From the NCBI GenBank assembly GCA_028287345.1, contig JAQBPV010000370.1, forward strand, positions 1 to 39,463: DNA of 39,463 nucleotides, given 5' to 3'. Shown here piece by piece: positions 1-37,527 of this stretch (position 1 is the first letter of the stretch; every line of letters starts with the position of its first letter). Made by a program: the position numbers and the translations under genes. The stretch is from Gemmatimonadota bacterium (lineage in GTDB: Bacteria; Gemmatimonadota; Gemmatimonadetes; Gemmatimonadales; Gemmatimonadaceae). The notes under the pieces are model-generated. The model saw nothing but the letters and a program-made list of their open reading frames with translations. It did no database searches and was not told the DNA's origin.

Positions 1-3000
1 GCAGCACGTAGCCCGTTCCGCCGAAGTCGATCGCCGCCGATGGGAACGTCGCGACGCCATTGACAAACGTGATCGGTCCCGGGCCGGCGAGCGTTGCGCC
101 CGTCGTTCCCGTTCCCGGTGCGATCGAGAGCGTCACCGTATTCGTGTTGTTGCTCGTGACCGTGTTGCTCTGCGCGTCCACCAGCCGCACCGTCACGGCC
201 GGCGAGAACGCAACACCGCCGGTGCCGCCTGCCGGCGACGCCGAGAAGGCGATGCCCACTGCCGGTCCCGCCGCCTGGGTGATTGGCGATGACGATACAG
301 GCGTGAGTGAACCGGACTGGAACTGCAACGTGAACGTCCCCGATCCGTTGATGGTGAGCGCGCTGAACGTTGCGACACCACCAGCGCCGATCGTGGCCGT
401 CGCGTTGTTGAGCGTCCCTGTACCCGACGTGATGACCGCCGTGACCGTACCTGTCGCTGCGGTCGCGTTACCGAACGCGTCGCGCACCTGAATGACCGGC
501 TGCGGCGACAACGGCGCGCCGCTCGCCGAGTTCGCCGGCGGCTGGGTGGTGAAGCTGAGTGCTGCCGGCGGCGCGGCGACACCTGTCGCGTTGAATGTCG
601 TGGACAGCGCACCGATCGTGGCGGAGAGCGAATTGGCGCCGGCGATATTGCCGAGCTGCCACGAGCCAACTGTTGCGACGCCCGACGCATTCGTCGTCGC
701 CGGCGTTCCAGTGACGAGGCCACTTCCTGAAGTCACGGTGAACGTCACCTGCACGCTCTGCACCGGATTACCCGACCCGTCCGTCACCCTAACACTCGGT
801 GCCGTCGCGACGTTCGTTCCCACAGTCGCCGTCTGATTGTTACCAGCCGAGATAGCGATGGCTGACGGGCCGCCGGCGCTCACGGTGATCGCGGACGACG
901 CGATGTGCGTCACGTTGGGCGCCGTGAAGTCGAGCGTCACTCCGCCAGCTGGTCCCGTTATGGTAAGGCCACTGAACGTCGCGAGACCGCCGGTCGTCGT
1001 CGTCGCGGTGGTGTTCGTCAGCGCTCCGCTGCCGCTCAAGACCGACGCAGTGACCTGCACACCGCCGCTGGACACTGGATTGCCGAAGTTGTCCTGCAGC
1101 TGCACCGACGGCTGCGGGTTCAGCGCGATGCCGCTCGCCGCCGTCGGCGGCGGAGGCGTGATGAACGCGAGCCGCGCCGCAGGTCCGGCGACGGCCGTTG
1201 CAGTGAACGTCGCGCTGAGCGCGCCCACTGACGCCGAGAGGTTATTTGTACCGACACTGGTGCCGAGCTGCCAACCACCGGACGTCGCAACACCAGAGGA
1301 GTTCGTCAACACGCTGCCGGGCGGTGTGCTTCCACCGCCAAGTGTCGGAGCGAACGTCACCGCGACGCCAGCGAGCGGCGTGCCCGATCCGTCCGTCACC
1401 CGCACGCTCGGCGCAACAGCCACCGAAGTGCCCGCGGCGGCAACCTGTTGGTCACCAGCGACGATCGTGATCGCCGACGGCCCGCCAGTGCCGAGCGTGA
1501 TGTTGTTCGACACGACCGCCGTGAGTCCGCTTGCCGCAAAGCGCAGCGTGAACGAACCCGGAGCGCCGCTCAGCGCGAGATTGCTGTACGTGGCCAGGCC
1601 ACTGGCGTTCGTCGCGATGGTCGTCGTTCCGCCGAGTGTGCCCGCGCCGCTCGCGATCGTCGCCAGGACGTTGGTCGTCGCGTTGACCGGGTTGGATCCA
1701 ACGTCGTTCACCTGCACAGCCGGCTGCGGTGTGAAGGCGACGCCGTTCGCAGCGCTCGCCGGAGGCTGTGTCGTGACGAGCAACTTGTTCGGCGCGCCAG
1801 CGAGCACCGTGATGCCCGACGTGACGAGCGTATTGATGCTCGGCGCCGAGAGGATGAACGTCATCGTGCCGATCTTGCCGATGTACGGCTGCACGTTGAA
1901 CGTTGCGACGCCATTGCTCGCGGTCGTTGCATTCAGCCCGAACGAGGTGTTGCTCGGCTGCACGTTCACGGTTGCCGTGATCACCGTGTTGCTCTGCGCC
2001 ACGTTGTTGCCGTTGCCGTCGACGAGCTGCACCTGCACCGCCGGGAAGGGCAGGCCCACGGTGATCGATGCAGGCATGGCCTGCAGCAACTTCATGTCCG
2101 CGGCTGGGCCGGGCGTGCCGGTCGCCGTGAACGTCAGCGGGCTATTCGCGAGGCCTGTCGCGCTTGCCGTGAGCGTGTTCGTGCCCGCGGTCGTGCTCAC
2201 TTGCCAGAAGAACTGCGCCGCCGCGATGCCCTGCGCATTCGTCTGGATCGTCTTCGATGTCACGTCGTCGATGTACGAGTTCGGCGTGACTGCCGTGAAC
2301 AGCACGTTGACGCCGGCTACCGGATTGCCTCCGGCGTCTTTCACGAGGACTGCCGGCAGGATCGGAACGGAACTGCCCGCCGGAACCGTCTGGTTGTTTC
2401 CGGCGTCGATCGTCATCGATGCTGCCGGACCGGCCGTGAGGTTGATGACCGTCGAGACCGCGGGACTGAGTGACGGATTGTAGAACTGCAGGCTGGTGGC
2501 GCCCACGGGACCTGCGACGAACAGGTCGGTGAAAACGGCCTGGCCACTCGCATTGGTGTTGATCGTCGTCGTGCCGCCGACGGTCGCACCTGTGGCGTTC
2601 ACATTGATCGGAATACCGGCCGTCGACACCGGATTGTTACCGTCGTCCACGACGCGCACGACGGGCTGCGGCGAGAGCAGTACACCGCTCCGTGCCGTTG
2701 CCGGCGGCTGCGTCGTGACGCGTATCGTCGAAGCCGCGCCGGCCACGACCGGAATTGCCGGCGACGTAACCGTCGTGAATCCGGTTGCGGCGATAGTGAT
2801 GATCTCGTTGCCGATCTGACCGACGTACGGCGACAGAGTCAGGTTGATGATACCTTGCGCGTTCGTCTGCAGCGTGAAGTTGAAGTTGAACCCACCCGGC
2901 TGAACGTTGCCGTTGAAGTTCACGCTCACATTCCCCTGCTGCACGGGATTGTTGTTCGCGTCGGCGATTTGAATGTTGATCGGCGGATGCGGCGCGCCCA

Positions 3001-5941
3001 CGACGATCTGCGTCGGGAACGGCGACAACAGGATGAACTTCGATGCACCGGCTGCAGTCGCATTCGCCGTGAACGTCACTGGCGATCCGTTCGGTACGGT
3101 CGCACTGGCCGTGACCGTGTGCGGACCGGCCGTCGGGCTCATCGTCCACGCCGTGAGCTGCGCGTTGCCGAACGAGTTCGTCGTCACGGTGACGGTCGTG
3201 CCCGTCGTCGTTCCATCCGACACCGTCGATCCGGAGTTCACGGCGGTGAACGTGACGACCACACCCGGCACACCATTGCCCTGTGCGTCGATCACCTTGG
3301 CGATCGGCGGCACACCGACCGGCGTGCTGATCGGCGCGTTCTGGCCATTTCCCCCGAAGAGCAAGAGCGTGTTGGCCGGGCCCGCGCCATTGGTGATCGT
3401 GTTCGACACCGCCGCCGTGGCCCCAAGATTGGACGAGAAGCTCAGCCGGTACACGCCGAACGGACCATTGATGCTCATGCCGGCGAACGTCGCCTGACCG
3501 CTGGCGTTGGTCGTCGCCGTCGCGTTGCTCAGTACCGGCGTCGGAGTGGTCGGTCCGCTCGCGAACGTGGCCGTCACCACCACACCAGCGGTGTTGACGG
3601 GATTGCCGTTCGCGTCGGCGAGTTGCACGACCGGCTGCTGCGGGAATGGCGCCTGGTTGACGACCGTCGCCGACGGCTGCGTCGTGATCACGAACATGGA
3701 CGCCGCTCCGGCCACGATCGGAATCGCCTGCGTCTGCAAACCCGTCACGCCGGGGGCCGAGATATCGAACGAAACTGTTCCGGGCGGACCGTTGTACGTC
3801 GGTACGCTGAACGTCGCGGTACCCGTATTGTCCGTGCTCGCCGTGAGCGTGGGGAAGTTGGGGCCTGGCGACGCATTGCCCGCTAGCGTGACGACGAGCC
3901 CAGACTGACGGACAGGATTGTTCTGGCCGTCGAACAGCTGCACCGAAACTGTCACGGGAGGCGCGCCAATCACGAACGGGGACGGCGGACCTTGGGCCAT
4001 CACGAGATGGTTTGGCCCGGCGGGCGTCGTACCCGTCGCCGTGAACGTCACGCTCAGCGTGCCGGACGTCGCCGTCAACCTGTTCGCTCCCGGCGTGGCG
4101 CCGAGCGTCCACGAGCCGACGGTCGCGACGCCAAAGCTGTTCGTCGTCGTGGTTCCGCCCGTGATCGAGCCGCCACCACTCGCCACTGCAAAGATCACCG
4201 GCGCATTCGCGATTGGATTCCCCAATCCATCCTTTAACACCACACCCGGTGCGAGTGCCACCGCCGTTCCCGCCAGTGCACTCTGCTGATCGCCGGCGAG
4301 GATGGAGAAGGTGTTGCCTCCCACCGTAGTCAGCGTCGTCGTCGCCGTGACCGTGCCGACCGTTGCCGTGACGGTCGTCGTACCCGCGTTGGCGCCGAGC
4401 GCTGCGACCGTCGATGCCTGACCGGTTGGATCGGTGAGCGACGAGACTGGATTGAACGACGCACCCGCGCCGGTCGCGCTCCACGTGACCGTCGCCCCGG
4501 CGATCGGATTGTTCTGGGCATCCGACACGCGCGCCACGAGTGGCGTGGGCAGCGTGGTGTTCGGCAGGCCTGTCTGGTTGCCGCCCGAGACGATTGCGAT
4601 CGTGGCCGGGCCGCGACTCACGGATTTCGTCGAGAACAACACGCTGTTCGGCACGCCCGCGACGCTGGCGCGAATGGTGTCGTTGCTCGCTGTCGTGCCG
4701 AGGCTGTACGTAATGCTGGTGGTTCCGTTGGCTCCGGTCGAGGTGCTCGTCGCACCGAGAAGTCCGTTGCCCGCGACGGTCGTCCAGGTCACCGTCGCAC
4801 CGCCTACCGCGCCCCCAAACTGGTCGGTGACCTTCACGACGAATGGCAGCGGCAATGTCTTGCCGACGGTATCGACCTGCGCATCACCCGAGACGATGGC
4901 GATTGCTGCGGCCGGAGCCGGGGTCGCCGTGGCGCTCACGCTCACCGGCGTCAGTGCGCCGGAACCTGCCTCGAAGACGTACGCGCCTGGAATTGGACCA
5001 AGCGTCAGCGTCGTCGATGCTCGACCACTCGCGTCGGCGAACACCGTAGCCTGCTGCACGCTGCCTCCGGCCGTCACCGCGCGGAACGTCACGACCGCAT
5101 TGGGCACTGGAAGATTGTCCGTCGCCTGCACTTCGACGACCAACGGCTGCGTGAGGGTCCTGCCGGCAATGCCGGTCTGCCCGCTGCCGCTGATCACGAC
5201 GATACGTGCGGCCGGCGGAACGAAGGTGATGCGCGAGGAGCCGGTGACGCCGAGCGGCGTGATCGCACTCACGATTGCCGCGCCGCGCTTGCCCAAGCCG
5301 CTGAGCGTGCCCGTCGCGTCGCCCGTCGATGTCGCGACGGCCAACGTGGCGTCGCTCACCGCGAACCGCACGAGCAGGTTGGTCACAGGGAGACCCGCCG
5401 AATCCACAGCGGTTGCCTTCATGGCGACGGTGGCCGCGCCGGCGATCGTGGTGTCAGGTGGAGAGAGCGACACCGTCTTGGTCCCCTTTCCGGGGCCGGT
5501 GTAGCTGATGACAACGAGCGGCGGCGTTTGCGCCGGCAGGTTCGCCGCGCGCGCGATGACCGTCTGGTGCCCCGAGAAGAGGACCACGTGTTGGTCATTG
5601 CGCAGCTCGACCAGCGCGTCGAATGACTGATCGGTCCCACTCGCGGGCACCGGGATCTCGATGGTGATCTGACCCTGGTTCACCGGGAATGCGATGACCG
5701 TGTCCTTCTTGCTGCCATCCGGTCCGGTGAGGAGGACGTGAACTTCCGTCACCTCCAGTCCGAACGCGGCGAGCCCACTATAGATGCGGGCCGCTTCTGC
5801 AGAGAACGACGGTGACATCCGGACGTTGGCGACGCCGGATGGCACGGGCTTGATCTTGGTGGGGCTCGTCGGCGCATCCGTGCAGGTAATTGCCACGATG
5901 GCGAGTGCGACGAGTCCGACAGCGCGGAGGCGTTGACGCAT
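1..5941 (-). CDS. Giant Ig-like repeat lipoprotein (C-terminus beyond left edge)
   Basis: The frame is open from ATG at 5941 to the window edge, over 1,975 codons, and has no stop in the long stretches I translated. The N-terminus is a lipoprotein-like signal (MRQRLRAVGLVALAIVAITC, Cys20; the lipobox is not ideal). A domain of about 100 residues follows that is shared with the neighbour at 6216-8936, then about 18 bacterial Ig-like (Big_1/invasin-type) domains of 90-110 residues. From the fifth domain on, two subtypes alternate as A-B-B. A domains carry AGDQQ/AGNNQ motifs (near 4300, 3360, 2405, 1460 and 850). B domains carry TTQPPA..G.....PQPVVQ motifs. Such proteins are usually surface adhesins or stalk-like spacers; the ligand is unknown. 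The gene is probably monocistronic. No C-terminal anchor or sorting domain is visible because the end is cut off. Confidence 0.93.
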   Translation of the reverse strand, partial: MRQRLRAVGLVALAIVAITCTDAPTSPTKIKPVPSGVANVRMSPSFSAEAARIYSGLAAFGLEVTEVHVLLTGPDGSKKDTVIAFPVNQGQITIEIPVPASGTDQSFDALVELRNDQHVVLFSGHQTVIARAANLPAQTPPLVVISYTGPGKGTKTVSLSPPDTTIAGAATVAMKATAVDSAGLPVTNLLVRFAVSDATLAVATSTGDATGTLSGLGKRGAAIVSAITPLGVTGSSRITFVPPAARIVVISGSGQTGIAGRTLTQPLVVEVQATDNLPVPNAVVTFRAVTAGGSVQQATVFADASGRASTTLTLGPIPGAYVFEAGSGALTPVSVSATATPAPAAAIAIVSGDAQVDTVGKTLPLPFVVKVTDQFGGAVGGATVTWTTVAGNGLLGATSTSTGANGTTSITYSLGTTASNDTIRASVAGVPNSVLFSTKSVSRGPATIAIVSGGNQTGLPNTTLPTPLVARVSDAQNNPIAGATVTWSATGAGASFNPVSSLTDPTGQASTVAALGANAGTTTVTATVGTVTATTTLTTVGGNTFSILAGDQQSALAGTAVALAPGVVLKDGLGNPIANAPVIFAVASGGGSITGGTTTTNSFGVATVGSWTLGATPGANRLTATSGTLSVTFTATGTTPAGPNHLVMAQGPPSPFVIGAPPVTVSVQLFDGQNNPVRQSGLVVTLAGNASPGPNFPTLTASTDNTGTATFSVPTYNGPPGTVSFDISAPGVTGLQTQAIPIVAGAASMFVITTQPSATVVNQAPFPQQPVVQLADANGNPVNTAGVVVTATFASGPTTPTPVLSNATATTNASGQATFAGMSINGPFGVYRLSFSSNLGATAAVSNTITNGAGPANTLLLFGGNGQNAPISTPVGVPPIAKVIDAQGNGVPGVVVTFTAVNSGSTVSDGTTTGTTVTVTTNSFGNAQLTAWTMSPTAGPHTVTASATVPNGSPVTFTANATAAGASKFILLSPFPTQIVVGAPHPPINIQIADANNNPVQQGNVSVNFNGNVQPGGFNFNFTLQTNAQGIINLTLSPYVGQIGNEIITIAATGFTTVTSPAIPVVAGAASTIRVTTQPPATARSGVLLSPQPVVRVVDDGNNPVSTAGIPINVNATGATVGGTTTINTNASGQAVFTDLFVAGPVGATSLQFYNPSLSPAVSTVINLTAGPAASMTIDAGNNQTVPAGSSVPILPAVLVKDAGGNPVAGVNVLFTAVTPNSYIDDVTSKTIQTNAQGIAAAQFFWQVSTTAGTNTLTASATGLANSPLTFTATGTPGPAADMKLLQAMPASITVGLPFPAVQVQLVDGNGNNVAQSNTVITATVNVQPSNTSFGLNATTASNGVATFNVQPYIGKIGTMTFILSAPSINTLVTSGITVLAGAPNKLLVTTQPPASAANGVAFTPQPAVQVNDVGSNPVNATTNVLATIASGAGTLGGTTTIATNASGLATYSNLALSGAPGSFTLRFAASGLTAVVSNNITLGTGGPSAITIVAGDQQVAAAGTSVAVAPSVRVTDGSGTPLAGVAVTFAPTLGGGSTPPGSVLTNSSGVATSGGWQLGTSVGTNNLSASVGALSATFTATAVAGPAARLAFITPPPPTAASGIALNPQPSVQLQDNFGNPVSSGGVQVTASVLSGSGALTNTTATTTTGGLATFSGLTITGPAGGVTLDFTAPNVTHIASSAITVSAGGPSAIAISAGNNQTATVGTNVATAPSVRVTDGSGNPVQSVQVTFTVTSGSGLVTGTPATTNASGVATVGSWQLGNIAGANSLSATIGALSTTFNATGVAAPPAALSFTTQPPANSASGAPLSPQPVIQVRDAFGNATAATGTVTAVITSGTGTLNNATATIGAGGVATFSALTINGSGTFTLQFQSGSLTPVSSSPITQAAGPAVGIAFSASPAGGTGGVAFSPAVTVRLVDAQSNTVTSNNTNTVTLSIAPGTGTTGATLAGPGPITFVNGVATFPSAAIDFGGTGYVL

Positions 5942-6003
5942 GGTTCCGGAAACTCGGGGGGGCAACGCCAGCCCTCATCGGCAACGTCGCTAAATGTCGA
6001 GCA

Positions 6004-6215: not shown

Positions 6216-8936
6216 TCAGCGCGGCGCGGCGCTGCGCTTGGGGTGCGTCCTTCTCGCTTCGGTGATCACATCGACGTCGTCGTGCACTCCCGAACTCGGA
6301 ATCCGAGACGCGGAGATGCCGCCGGTGGGAATCCTCGAGGTAACCGGGCCATTGCCGATGCTGTTGATCGACGTGATCGTCGTGCCGTCCAACTCGAAGA
6401 CGGTCCAGTAACGGCCACTGCCTTGCGGCACCGAGAACGACCGCGCGAGCGCGTTGTTGATGTAGACGTCCACGCGTGCGCCCGAAACGTCGATGTTCGG
6501 CGATCCGGAGTAGTTGTGGACTGTGTACCGGTACGTTCCCGGCACCTGCTGCGTGATGGTGACGGTCTCCGGTCCGTTACCGTCCGTGTCATCCACATCG
6601 AGGCAGGCGAACGGTGTCGAACTGCAATTGCCCGGCGACCCGTAGAAGACGTGGAACCGGCTGCCGGTCGTGCCAGGTCCCGTGAGATGCGAATCGAGAT
6701 CGTAGGGCAGCTGGAGCCACGTGAGCACGATGCGCACGTTGCCCGCAACACCGACTGGGGCGAGGATGACGTCCTGCCCGGTCCTCGCCGATCCGCCGAC
6801 CGAGATGCCGGTCCTCGTGCCGTCGGCATAGCCGGCCGCCTTCGCCACGATCGTGTACGTGCCCGCGGAGACATTCGCGAACGCGTACGACGACTGGGTG
6901 GTCGTCACCGTCTGCAGCGGCGTGCCCGTCGTGCTGTTGATGCCGGCGCGCAGCTCGAGCGTCACCGTCCCGCTCACGGGTCGCGTGGTGGTCGCATCGA
7001 ACACCGTGCCGGAGATGCCGCCGGACTGTGTGCTTTGCGGAACGAGCGGAGCCGCCGGCGCCTGCGTGTTGCCGTTGAGCGTGACGGTCGAAATGTTCAC
7101 GGTCGTGTAGTTGGTCGCCGTGATCGTCACGCTGTAGGTGCCGGCAGGCAGCGGCGCGGTAGTGAAGTTGCCGCCACCGTTCGTCGCGACCGTGGCGACA
7201 GTCTGGTTTCCGTTCAACACGGTAACGGACGCACCCGAGATTCCGGCGTTGGTGACGGCATCGTACACGAAGCCGCTCAGTGTACCCGGCGCCGTCGGCG
7301 CGGAGCTCACATCGGCCGTCTCCGGATAGTTCTGGAGCATTGCCCCCGCAGTGGCCGTAATCACCAGCGCACCGGGTTGATTGCCGAGCGTGACGAGGGT
7401 CGACGCGCGACCCCCGACGTCCGTGGTGGAGATCGACGGCGTCATCGTCGCGGAGCCAACGCTCCCCGTCGCAACCGCCCAGACGACCTTGTATCCGGCA
7501 ATGGGATTTCCGTACTGGTCCGCGATGATGGTGCCCAACGGGCTCGCCAATGCGCTACCGGCGGGAGCGTGCTGGCCGGCGCCGGAACCACTGATCGTGG
7601 CGGGGATGTCGGCCAACGCAGTAAAGGAGAAGTTGACCTCACCGTCTGGTGCAGCAACGCCCGTCAGCGACGCCGTAAGGAACTGGATCTGCGCATGGGT
7701 GCCGAGCTTGTACGTCGTGGTCGTGGTACCGTCGGCGGCCGTCGTCGAGGATGCGGTCGCTGGCGTTCCACCGCCCGCCGCGGTCGTCCACTTGACCACC
7801 GCACCACCGACTGGCGCACCGAAGGCGTTCGTCACCCTGACCGTGACCGGCTGCGCCAGGTTGGTTCCGACGACTCCCGTCTGGTTGTTGCCTCCGAGGA
7901 ACGAGATCCTCGCGGCCGGCGCCGGCGTCGCGGTCGCGTTCACCGTTGCCGGTGTGGCCGTGCCGGACGTTGCTTCGAATTGATACACGCCGGCATCCGG
8001 ACCGAGCATCAACGTGGTGCTGGCGCGTCCACTCGCATCCGTTGTAGCGGCGACGCTCGAAACGGCTCCGCCCGTGGAGCTCGCCCGGAACGTCACCGGC
8101 ACACCCGCAAGCGCCGCGTTGTCGGCAGCCTGCAGCTCCACGGTGAACGGCTGCGCCAGCGGCGAGCCGGCGATGCCGGTCTGCCCACCACCACTGATCA
8201 CGAGGATCTTGGCCGGAACGGGAATGATGGTCAGCGCCATCGCTCCGGTGAGGCCTAACGGTGTGATTGCACTGACGGTGACCGCACCGCGTTTGCCGGT
8301 GCTCGTCACGTTCGCGCTGGCGAAACCGGTCGAGGTGACGGTGGCGATTGTGGCGTCGCTCGTCGTCCAACGCACGAGCAGGTTGGAAATCGAACCACCG
8401 CTGGCGTCCTGCGCGGCGGCGGAAACGGCCAGCGATCCACCCAACGGAAGTGAGGGGCCGGCGGCCGACACGGTCACCGTCTTCGCGGTGGCGCCAGGTC
8501 CCGTGTAGTTGATCTGTACCGACGCGGGCGTGCCGTCATCGAGTCCGTTGGCCACCTGTGCGACCACCTGTTGCGAACCGCTGAACAACACGACGCCATC
8601 GGAGTTGAGCAGCTCGAGATCGGCGCGGAACGTCTGCCCCGCCGTGCGGATCGGGACCGACAATTCAACGTGCAACTCGTTCATCCCCACCGGGAAGGCG
8701 ATCGACGTGTCCCGCATTGACCCGTCGGGGGCGACGAGGCGCACGTGCACGCTCGTGACTTCGACGCCAAACGCTGCGAGTTGCTGGAAAGCCGCTACTG
8801 CCGATGGCGAAAAGGTGGGCGCGAGTCCGATCCTTCCTCGCGCCGTCACTGTTGGATCCGAGCCGGTTGGAACGTCGGAACACGATGTCGCCATCAGGGC
8901 GACGGCGAACAGTGCGGCGAGGCGAGGGCTACGCAT
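6216..8936 (-). CDS. Ig-like lipoprotein with DUF2135/YfaP-like C-terminus
   Basis: A protein of 906 residues. I chose ATG 8936 over the in-frame TTG at 8960 because it gives a clean lipoprotein signal (MRSPRLAALFAVALMATSC, Cys19). Residues about 25-400 closely parallel the N-terminus of the protein at 1-5941, including shared GKRGA.TVSAITPLG and GQTGIAG blocks. Ig-like domains continue to about residue 550. Two beta-sandwich regulatory domains of the carboxypeptidase-D type follow (SGFVYDAVTNAGISGASVTV and GISGTVFDATTTRPVSGTV). The last 140 residues hold LTWLQLPYDLDSHLTGPG and LDVDDTDGNGPETVTI, hallmarks of the DUF2135/YfaP-like fold with an acidic, possibly Ca-binding loop. It is likely an outer-membrane or surface lipoprotein. 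The pair looks like a gene duplication followed by divergent C-terminal fusion. Confidence 0.9.
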   Translation of the reverse strand: MRSPRLAALFAVALMATSCSDVPTGSDPTVTARGRIGLAPTFSPSAVAAFQQLAAFGVEVTSVHVRLVAPDGSMRDTSIAFPVGMNELHVELSVPIRTAGQTFRADLELLNSDGVVLFSGSQQVVAQVANGLDDGTPASVQINYTGPGATAKTVTVSAAGPSLPLGGSLAVSAAAQDASGGSISNLLVRWTTSDATIATVTSTGFASANVTSTGKRGAVTVSAITPLGLTGAMALTIIPVPAKILVISGGGQTGIAGSPLAQPFTVELQAADNAALAGVPVTFRASSTGGAVSSVAATTDASGRASTTLMLGPDAGVYQFEATSGTATPATVNATATPAPAARISFLGGNNQTGVVGTNLAQPVTVRVTNAFGAPVGGAVVKWTTAAGGGTPATASSTTAADGTTTTTYKLGTHAQIQFLTASLTGVAAPDGEVNFSFTALADIPATISGSGAGQHAPAGSALASPLGTIIADQYGNPIAGYKVVWAVATGSVGSATMTPSISTTDVGGRASTLVTLGNQPGALVITATAGAMLQNYPETADVSSAPTAPGTLSGFVYDAVTNAGISGASVTVLNGNQTVATVATNGGGNFTTAPLPAGTYSVTITATNYTTVNISTVTLNGNTQAPAAPLVPQSTQSGGISGTVFDATTTRPVSGTVTLELRAGINSTTGTPLQTVTTTQSSYAFANVSAGTYTIVAKAAGYADGTRTGISVGGSARTGQDVILAPVGVAGNVRIVLTWLQLPYDLDSHLTGPGTTGSRFHVFYGSPGNCSSTPFACLDVDDTDGNGPETVTITQQVPGTYRYTVHNYSGSPNIDVSGARVDVYINNALARSFSVPQGSGRYWTVFELDGTTITSINSIGNGPVTSRIPTGGISASRIPSSGVHDDVDVITEARRTHPKRSAAPR

Positions 8937-8993
8937 TGGGGGGGACGCAAGGGTACGCAACCGACGTCGTTGCCGGCTACGTCACACGACACC

Positions 8994-36119: not shown

Positions 36120-36347
36120 ATGAAGATCACGATCGAATACTGCACCGTTTGAAGCTACGAGCCGAGGGCCTCCAGTTTGGCGGCCGAGATTTCCCGAGAG
36201 TTTTCGGGCGCGCAGATTACGCTCGTTCCGAGCTCGGGCGGTCGTTTCGAAGTGCTTCAGGATGGAATACCCATCTACGAGAAGTCGAAGCTTGGGCGGC
36301 ACGCCGCGAAGGGCGAAATCGTCGCGCTGCTGCGTTCGTCCACCTGA
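36120..36347 (+). CDS. SelW/Rdx-family selenoprotein (TGA codon 11 read as selenocysteine)
   Basis: A protein of 75 residues if TGA at 36150-36152 is selenocysteine (U). It begins MKITIEYCTV-U-SYEPR and continues to LVPSSGGRFEV, a core of the SelT/SelW/SelH (Rdx) family, then GIPIYEKSKLGRHAAKGEIV. Bacterial members have MKV.IEYC..C at the same place, so CxxC is CxxU here (Cys8, U11). The frame stays open for 64 more codons to TGA 36345, and the downstream residues are strongly family-like, which argues against a pseudogene. A SECIS-like stem-loop follows. These proteins are small thioredoxin-fold redox proteins, probably thiol-peroxidase or glutathione-linked. RBS is weak. A conventional gene caller breaks it at codon 11. 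Confidence 0.85.
36167..36185 (+). promoter_or_regulatory. Bacterial SECIS-like stem-loop
   Basis: Stem GGCC / GGCC, a U-C internal mismatch, stem CC / GG, and loop AGUUU (36174-36178). The loop starts 21 bases after the TGA, within the 16-37 base range of bacterial SECIS elements, and has G as its second base. It lies within the coding sequence, as expected. It is short; a second hairpin (CCCGA/TCGGG, 36193-36208) lies beyond that range. Confidence 0.55.
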
Positions 36348-36447: not shown

Positions 36448-37527
36448 ATGCGCATCGCCATCTCGACGGGCGGCGGCGACGCCCCTGGTCTGAACGCAGT
36501 CATTCGCGCCGCCGTGCTCACCGCGATCAACCGTGGCTGGGATGTCGTCGGCATCAAACGCGGGTTCGCCGGCCTCCTCGGCGAAGATGAAGTGGTGCCG
36601 CTGACCAAGCAGTCCGTGCGCGGCATTGCGCATCTTGGCGGAACGATCCTCCGCGCGACGAACCGCGGCAATCCGTTCTGCTATCCGCGGAAGCAGCCCG
36701 ACGGCAGCTACATCCCCGAGGACCGCTCGGACGAGTTGATGGAGAATGCGCGGAAGATGGGCATCGACGCCGTGATCTCCATCGGTGGCGACGGTTCGCT
36801 CGAAATCGCGCTGCAGCTCTGCAACAAGGGAATGAAGGTCATCGGGGTGCCGAAGACGATCGACAACGACGTGAGCGGCACGGTGACGACGTTCGGCTTC
36901 GACACCGCCGTCAACACGGCGATCGAGGCAATCGACAAGCTGCACACGACGGCTGAAAGTCATGATCGCGTGATCGTGATGGAGGTCATGGGGCGCGACG
37001 CGGGGTTCATCGCGCTGCACTCCGGCGTCGCGGGAACGGCCGACGTCATTCTCCTGCCGGAGATCCCGTACGACATCAATCGCGTATGCGACAAGATCAT
37101 CGCGCGCGATGCGGCGGGCCGTCACTTCTCCATCGTCGTGGTCGCAGAAGGTGCATTTCCCATCGGCGGCGAGGTGCACACGCTGGGTGAGTCGATGCCA
37201 GGACAGGCGCGGCGAGTCGGCGGTGTCGCGGATCTCGTGGCGAAGGAGATTCAGGTCATCACCGGGAAGGAGACACGGTCACTGGTGCTCGGACACCTGC
37301 AGCGCGGCGGCATGCCGACTGGCTATGACCGTCTCCTGGCGACGCGGTTCGGCGGTGCAGCGGTGCGGGCGGTGGCGGAGGAGAAGTGGGGGCACATGGT
37401 GGCGCTCCAGACTCCACATATCGTGACGATTCCCATCGAGGAAGCGCTGAGTGAGCGGAAGCGGGTGGACATCACGCACGATCTGGTGCAGACGGCTCGG
37501 GAGTCGGGGATCAGCTTCGGGGACTAG
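36448..37527 (+). CDS. pfkA: 6-phosphofructokinase
   Basis: A protein of 359 residues from ATG 36448 (the ORF opens at 36406 through non-family sequence). It phosphorylates fructose 6-phosphate in glycolysis. N-terminal STGGGDAPGLN binds phosphate; the nucleotide motif is GGDGS (113-117) and the catalytic loop PKTIDND (135-141, Asp139). Gly116 at the phosphoryl-donor site is the ATP-type residue. Lys136, in place of Gly of PGTIDND, is the pyrophosphate-type residue. The combination is known from group III ATP-dependent actinobacterial enzymes. Substrate motifs MEVMGRDAGFIA and HLQRGGMPTGYDR are intact. The likely donor is ATP; pyrophosphate is less likely. Confidence 0.94.
   Translation: MRIAISTGGGDAPGLNAVIRAAVLTAINRGWDVVGIKRGFAGLLGEDEVVPLTKQSVRGIAHLGGTILRATNRGNPFCYPRKQPDGSYIPEDRSDELMENARKMGIDAVISIGGDGSLEIALQLCNKGMKVIGVPKTIDNDVSGTVTTFGFDTAVNTAIEAIDKLHTTAESHDRVIVMEVMGRDAGFIALHSGVAGTADVILLPEIPYDINRVCDKIIARDAAGRHFSIVVVAEGAFPIGGEVHTLGESMPGQARRVGGVADLVAKEIQVITGKETRSLVLGHLQRGGMPTGYDRLLATRFGGAAVRAVAEEKWGHMVALQTPHIVTIPIEEALSERKRVDITHDLVQTARESGISFGD

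Follow-up and report, generated by a model that had tools for sequence, protein, structure and literature searches.

The window, the whole 39,463-nucleotide stretch that was analysed, carries on its forward strand a short gene interrupted by an in-frame TGA and, downstream of it, a predicted pfkA (Table 1). The short gene starts with the ATG at 36120 and ends with the TGA at 36345-36347, and its predicted product, with U at residue 11, is MKITIEYCTVUSYEPRASSLAAEISREFSGAQITLVPSSGGRFEVLQDGIPIYEKSKLGRHAAKGEIVALLRSST. An earlier note on this DNA had described the gene as a SelW-like selenoprotein, and its coordinates, its 75 codons and the translation it quoted all match the sequence. The same note held that no conventional open reading frame covers the gene, which would therefore be absent from an automatic annotation. 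It is true that none spans the whole gene, but a conventional in-frame reading frame of 56 amino acids with a TTG start (36177-36347) spans the greater share of the codons that follow the TGA, and a gene caller might therefore report a truncated piece; moreover, since NCBIfam models made for the (seleno)protein form exist, the gene is not necessarily overlooked. Elsewhere in the window, the reverse strand encodes two long proteins (2-5965 and 6216-8960), both rich in repeats that look Ig-like; one of the two is open at the window edge.

Table 1. Features of the SelW-like locus, in window coordinates
Feature	Position	Strand	Basis
SelW-like (Rdx family) predicted selenoprotein gene	36120..36347	+	75 codons; PF10262, NF041051 and TIGR02174 all above cut-off
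CxxU redox motif, Cys8-Thr-Val-Sec11 (predicted)	36141..36152	+	alignment with homologues and solved Rdx chains
UGA, predicted to be read as selenocysteine	36150..36152	+	TGA in 131/133 homologue-bearing genomes; same codon in 68 aligned TGA loci
bSECIS hairpin (predicted)	36167..36185	+	stem 36167-36173 / 36179-36185; apical loop AGUUU 36174-36178; family-level stem/loop conservation, covariation
6-phosphofructokinase (pfkA, predicted)	36448..37527	+	named from its sequence; conserved neighbour in Gemmatimonadaceae

With the TGA translated as a residue, the product scores above the curated cut-off of Pfam Rdx (PF10262: 64.3 bits, E=1.2e-17, cut-off 22.6) and above those of two NCBIfam SelT/W/H models, TIGR02174 (47.7 bits, cut-off 34.2) and NF041051 (SelTWH_Campy, SelT/SelW/SelH family (seleno)protein: 89.6 bits, cut-off 88), the latter barely exceeded and named for Campylobacter; these scores support the Rdx/SelW assignment that had been proposed. 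C8 and residue 11 are without variation in a 48-sequence alignment, the rows of which were selected as TGA forms. Homology to the Cys-containing Rdx proteins Atu0228 (PDB 2fa8) and PDB 2obk, which are longer (~103-105 aa), extends over 57-66 residues and places residue 11 opposite the second Cys of their CTQC motif near the N-terminus. The earlier note had read the motif as CxxU in place of CxxC, with U11 expected opposite a Sec or Cys of Rdx proteins, and the alignment bears this out: the solved proteins have CxxC at the same place, with Cys instead of Sec. By homology to these chains, the SelW-like protein is predicted to have a thioredoxin-like fold.

The TGA itself is highly conserved. A survey of 295 genomes of the class found a homologue in 133, of which 131 have TGA; the exceptions, G203 and G029, have by alignment TGC at this codon. 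All 68 other Gemmatimonadota loci compared base by base have TGA at exactly the same codon, and the protein sequence is conserved before as well as after it. A stop within the next 60 codons occurs in only 1/68 of these homologues in the frame of the gene, as against 60/68 and 47/68 in the two other forward frames, in keeping with the earlier description of the frame as family-like after the TGA. Substitutions after the TGA number 1073, 804 and 1461 at codon positions 1, 2 and 3, position 3 being the commonest. With the TGA at the same codon in 68/68 loci and almost no further stops in frame, the comparison excludes a chance origin of the frame. The 71 named loci found in GTDB genomes, which span Gemmatimonadaceae, Desulfobulbaceae, Verrucomicrobia, Planctomycetes, Krumholzibacteriota, Acidobacteria and others, comprise 69 with TGA, one with TGC (Thermodesulfovibrio) and one that is not resolvable. 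We note that the homologue of a genome of the same genus (L068 in G057) is apparently frameshifted after ...VLKDGVP, through either sequencing error or early decay.

Downstream of the TGA, the bases at offsets 17-23 pair with those at 29-35 around a five-base loop, mostly AGUUU, GGUCU or AGUCU; the apical loop of the Escherichia coli fdhF SECIS also contains GGUCU. In 66 distinct sequences, 93.5% of cells are paired, 31 cells show double changes compared to 7.5 in shuffles (0/500), and covariation is 0.266 compared to 0.133 in shuffles (0/500). Sliding the partners by 1-3 columns reduces pairing to 17-59%. The pairs 17-35 and 20-32 connect third codon positions, and compensatory changes there are therefore largely synonymous. 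When the codons of each column were shuffled solely between sequences that share the encoded amino acid, the observed pairing was reached in 0/1000 shuffles, both for the Gemmatimonadota and for a second set made up of the named GTDB loci, some Gemmatimonadota included. The Ser of the loop codon is AGT in 36/36 genes, compared to 7/249 Ser codons elsewhere in those genes, and the loop codon is thus under the same selection as the stem. The copy in the window has one U.C mismatch (36171/36181). The minimum-energy fold of its 48 nt is a different one, and its stability does not exceed that of shuffled sequences (z=+0.5); the case for its SECIS thus rests on the family. A search of the window with Rfam gave no match, so the element had to come from comparison. 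Throughout the family, a bSECIS hairpin with a conserved apical-loop G lies just downstream of the UGA, the weakly folding window copy included, and the alignments show that its conservation extends through the Gemmatimonadota and into other phyla.

The assembly that contains the window is a metagenome-assembled genome (MAG) of 6.08 Mb in 543 contigs, 91.8% complete and 5.6% contaminated. It encodes, on contigs other than that of the window, SelA (518.5 bits), SelB (349 bits summed), SelD (369 bits) and a tRNA-Sec with a TCA anticodon; selD has no internal stop, and its N-terminal motif, read by eye, has Cys, not Sec. Two tRNA-Sec matches lie at contig ends whose first ~127 bases (C441 and C487) are by eye reverse complements, and owing to this overlap they are probably a single gene, adjoining selD. 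A third match above the cut-off in the same genome is a tRNA-Ser, and in genomes negative for tRNA-Sec the four weak matches that were inspected proved to be tRNA-Ser or tRNA-Leu. The earlier note had counted a lack of sel genes against selenocysteine, and selA, selB, selD and tRNA-Sec have now all been found. Its reluctance to assume selenocysteine use in this lineage was too cautious: tRNA-Sec is present in 221/295 genomes of the class. The contamination of the MAG and the location of its sel genes on other contigs count against assigning them to the host of the window, but the same-genus relatives G136 and G057 also have both tRNA-Sec and selA. The TGA form of the Rdx gene and tRNA-Sec occur together in 122 genomes, TGA alone in 9, tRNA-Sec alone in 99 and neither in 65 (Fisher p=2e-11, relatedness uncorrected). 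Eight of the nine TGA genomes that have no tRNA-Sec at the cut-off used do have selA; missing contigs or assembly gaps are therefore the likely reason for most of them. Among the nine, G040 is a single contig with the TGA gene and selA in which no recognisable tRNA-Sec was found, and in G087 the TGA gene was found with neither tRNA-Sec nor selA; these two might be explained by a tRNA-Sec that has diverged, by decay or by incompleteness. Taken over the class, the SelW-like gene and the machinery for selenocysteine insertion are widespread.

The two TGC genomes show the reverse. In both G203 and G029, selA and tRNA-Sec are absent. G203, which has kept the pfkA neighbour, shares its genus with several TGA genomes, one of which (G008) has kept the TGA, selA and tRNA-Sec, and the loop motif is gone from the Cys versions of G203 and Thermodesulfovibrio. 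This amounts to a natural experiment within one genus, in which the change from Sec to Cys goes together with the disappearance of the SECIS loop, of selA and of tRNA-Sec.

We conclude that the gene most probably (about 96%) encodes a SelW-like selenoprotein in which the UGA is decoded as selenocysteine; we infer the insertion of selenocysteine, the redox chemistry and the physiological role from sequence comparison. The sel genes, the tRNA-Sec, the conserved TGA, the hairpin and the further likely selenoproteins of the assembly all support the decoding that the earlier note had taken the TGA to imply. In E. coli, SelB bound to the SECIS hairpin delivers Sec-tRNA. By analogy with that biochemistry, SelA and SelD would make selenocysteine on tRNA-Sec(UCA), and SelB, bound to the mRNA hairpin, would bring the Sec-tRNA to the ribosome. 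The product would be an Rdx-family redox protein of ~8 kDa in which Cys8 and Sec11 could form a reversible selenenylsulfide, and we suggest that it acts as a thiol-dependent oxidoreductase.

An alternative is that the TGA is a true stop, in which case the frame would be a pseudogene or expression would be confined to the TTG reading frame downstream. That reading frame does exist, and the apparently frameshifted copy in G057, with its lesion near the end of the gene, would fit decay. Nevertheless, the codons on both sides of the TGA are conserved in more than 130 genomes, the codon is TGA and not TAA or TAG, the RNA hairpin that follows it is under selection and the full sel machinery is present; we therefore regard a true stop as very improbable. 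Other bacteria exist in which TGA encodes Trp, and so a reassigned code, or near-cognate readthrough, could in principle place Trp or Cys at residue 11. Against this, TGA is used as a normal stop within the window, among other places at the end of the gene itself, residue 11 lies opposite a redox Cys and not a Trp, and tRNA-Sec, SelA and SelB are present here whereas selA and tRNA-Sec are absent from both TGC genomes. We consider Trp or Cys at this codon as improbable as a true stop. The locus comes from a single MAG, which could suggest a sequencing or assembly error for TGC or TGT, but the same TGA recurs in independent genomes (131 of the class, and 69 of the 70 named loci that could be resolved, which are spread over many phyla). 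An error, which the earlier note had raised itself, is thereby ruled out, its probability being negligible.

A tblastn search with the PfkA of the window gave matches at 56/140 homologue loci, and among the matches listed pfkA is nearly always downstream of the SelW-like gene and on the same strand. The assignment of the host to Gemmatimonadaceae was based on its closest named relatives; the window PfkA is 90% identical to that of L097. The adjacency may be simple operon inheritance. The conserved order could also be taken to indicate a functional link, in which the selenoprotein, or the efficiency of UGA recoding and hence the selenium supply, would control or redox-regulate phosphofructokinase and through it glycolytic flux; we think this improbable.

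Knowledge of bacterial SelW-like selenoproteins with CxxU goes back to about 2006 (Zhang et al. 2006, PMC1794560), and a SELENOW-like Rdx-family protein with CxxU is tabulated among bacterial selenoproteins (PMC9312934). The present protein shares with them the family (pfam10262), the motif, the UGA codon and a bacterial-type selenocysteine machinery. In organisms that contain Sec, Cys homologues of SelW-like proteins are very rare or absent (PMC1794560), and they are likewise very few in the Gemmatimonadota set. This kind of protein is thus already known; what is new is the host lineage, Gemmatimonadaceae and the wider class, where the gene has in addition a conserved placement upstream of pfkA. 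Our full-text search for Gemmatimonadetes or Gemmatimonadota together with selenoprotein or selenocysteine, the coverage of which was incomplete, found no paper that appeared to report the trait for this phylum. Within this large class, most of which is uncultured, selenocysteine decoding would be a common trait that the literature searched does not report, and the short selenoprotein genes of the class are easily truncated or missed, as in this soil-type Gemmatimonadaceae bacterium.

We also looked for other selenoproteins in the assembly. Formate dehydrogenase was considered and set aside, as no member scored above the cut-off. An AhpC/TSA peroxiredoxin (L173, contig C332:45300-46500) has the sequence ...RTKG-U-TIQMEAYRD followed by a GGCGUAC/GUACGCC hairpin; its TGA falls at what we take to be the usual peroxidatic Cys position of peroxiredoxins, and it is likely to be a Sec peroxiredoxin. 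A thioredoxin-like protein with UxxC (L174, contig C223:34900-36100; ...WTYG-U-INCIH) has a perfect CUCCCGC/GCGGGAG hairpin with an AGUU loop after its TGA, and an AhpD-like protein of the CMD family with CxxU (L175, contig C48:6900-7521; ...NQCLF-U-IGSHAA) has a hairpin with a GGUC loop. In both, the TGA is at a site that is presumably a redox Cys in most members of the family, and the three candidates are likely to be further selenoproteins of the same assembly.
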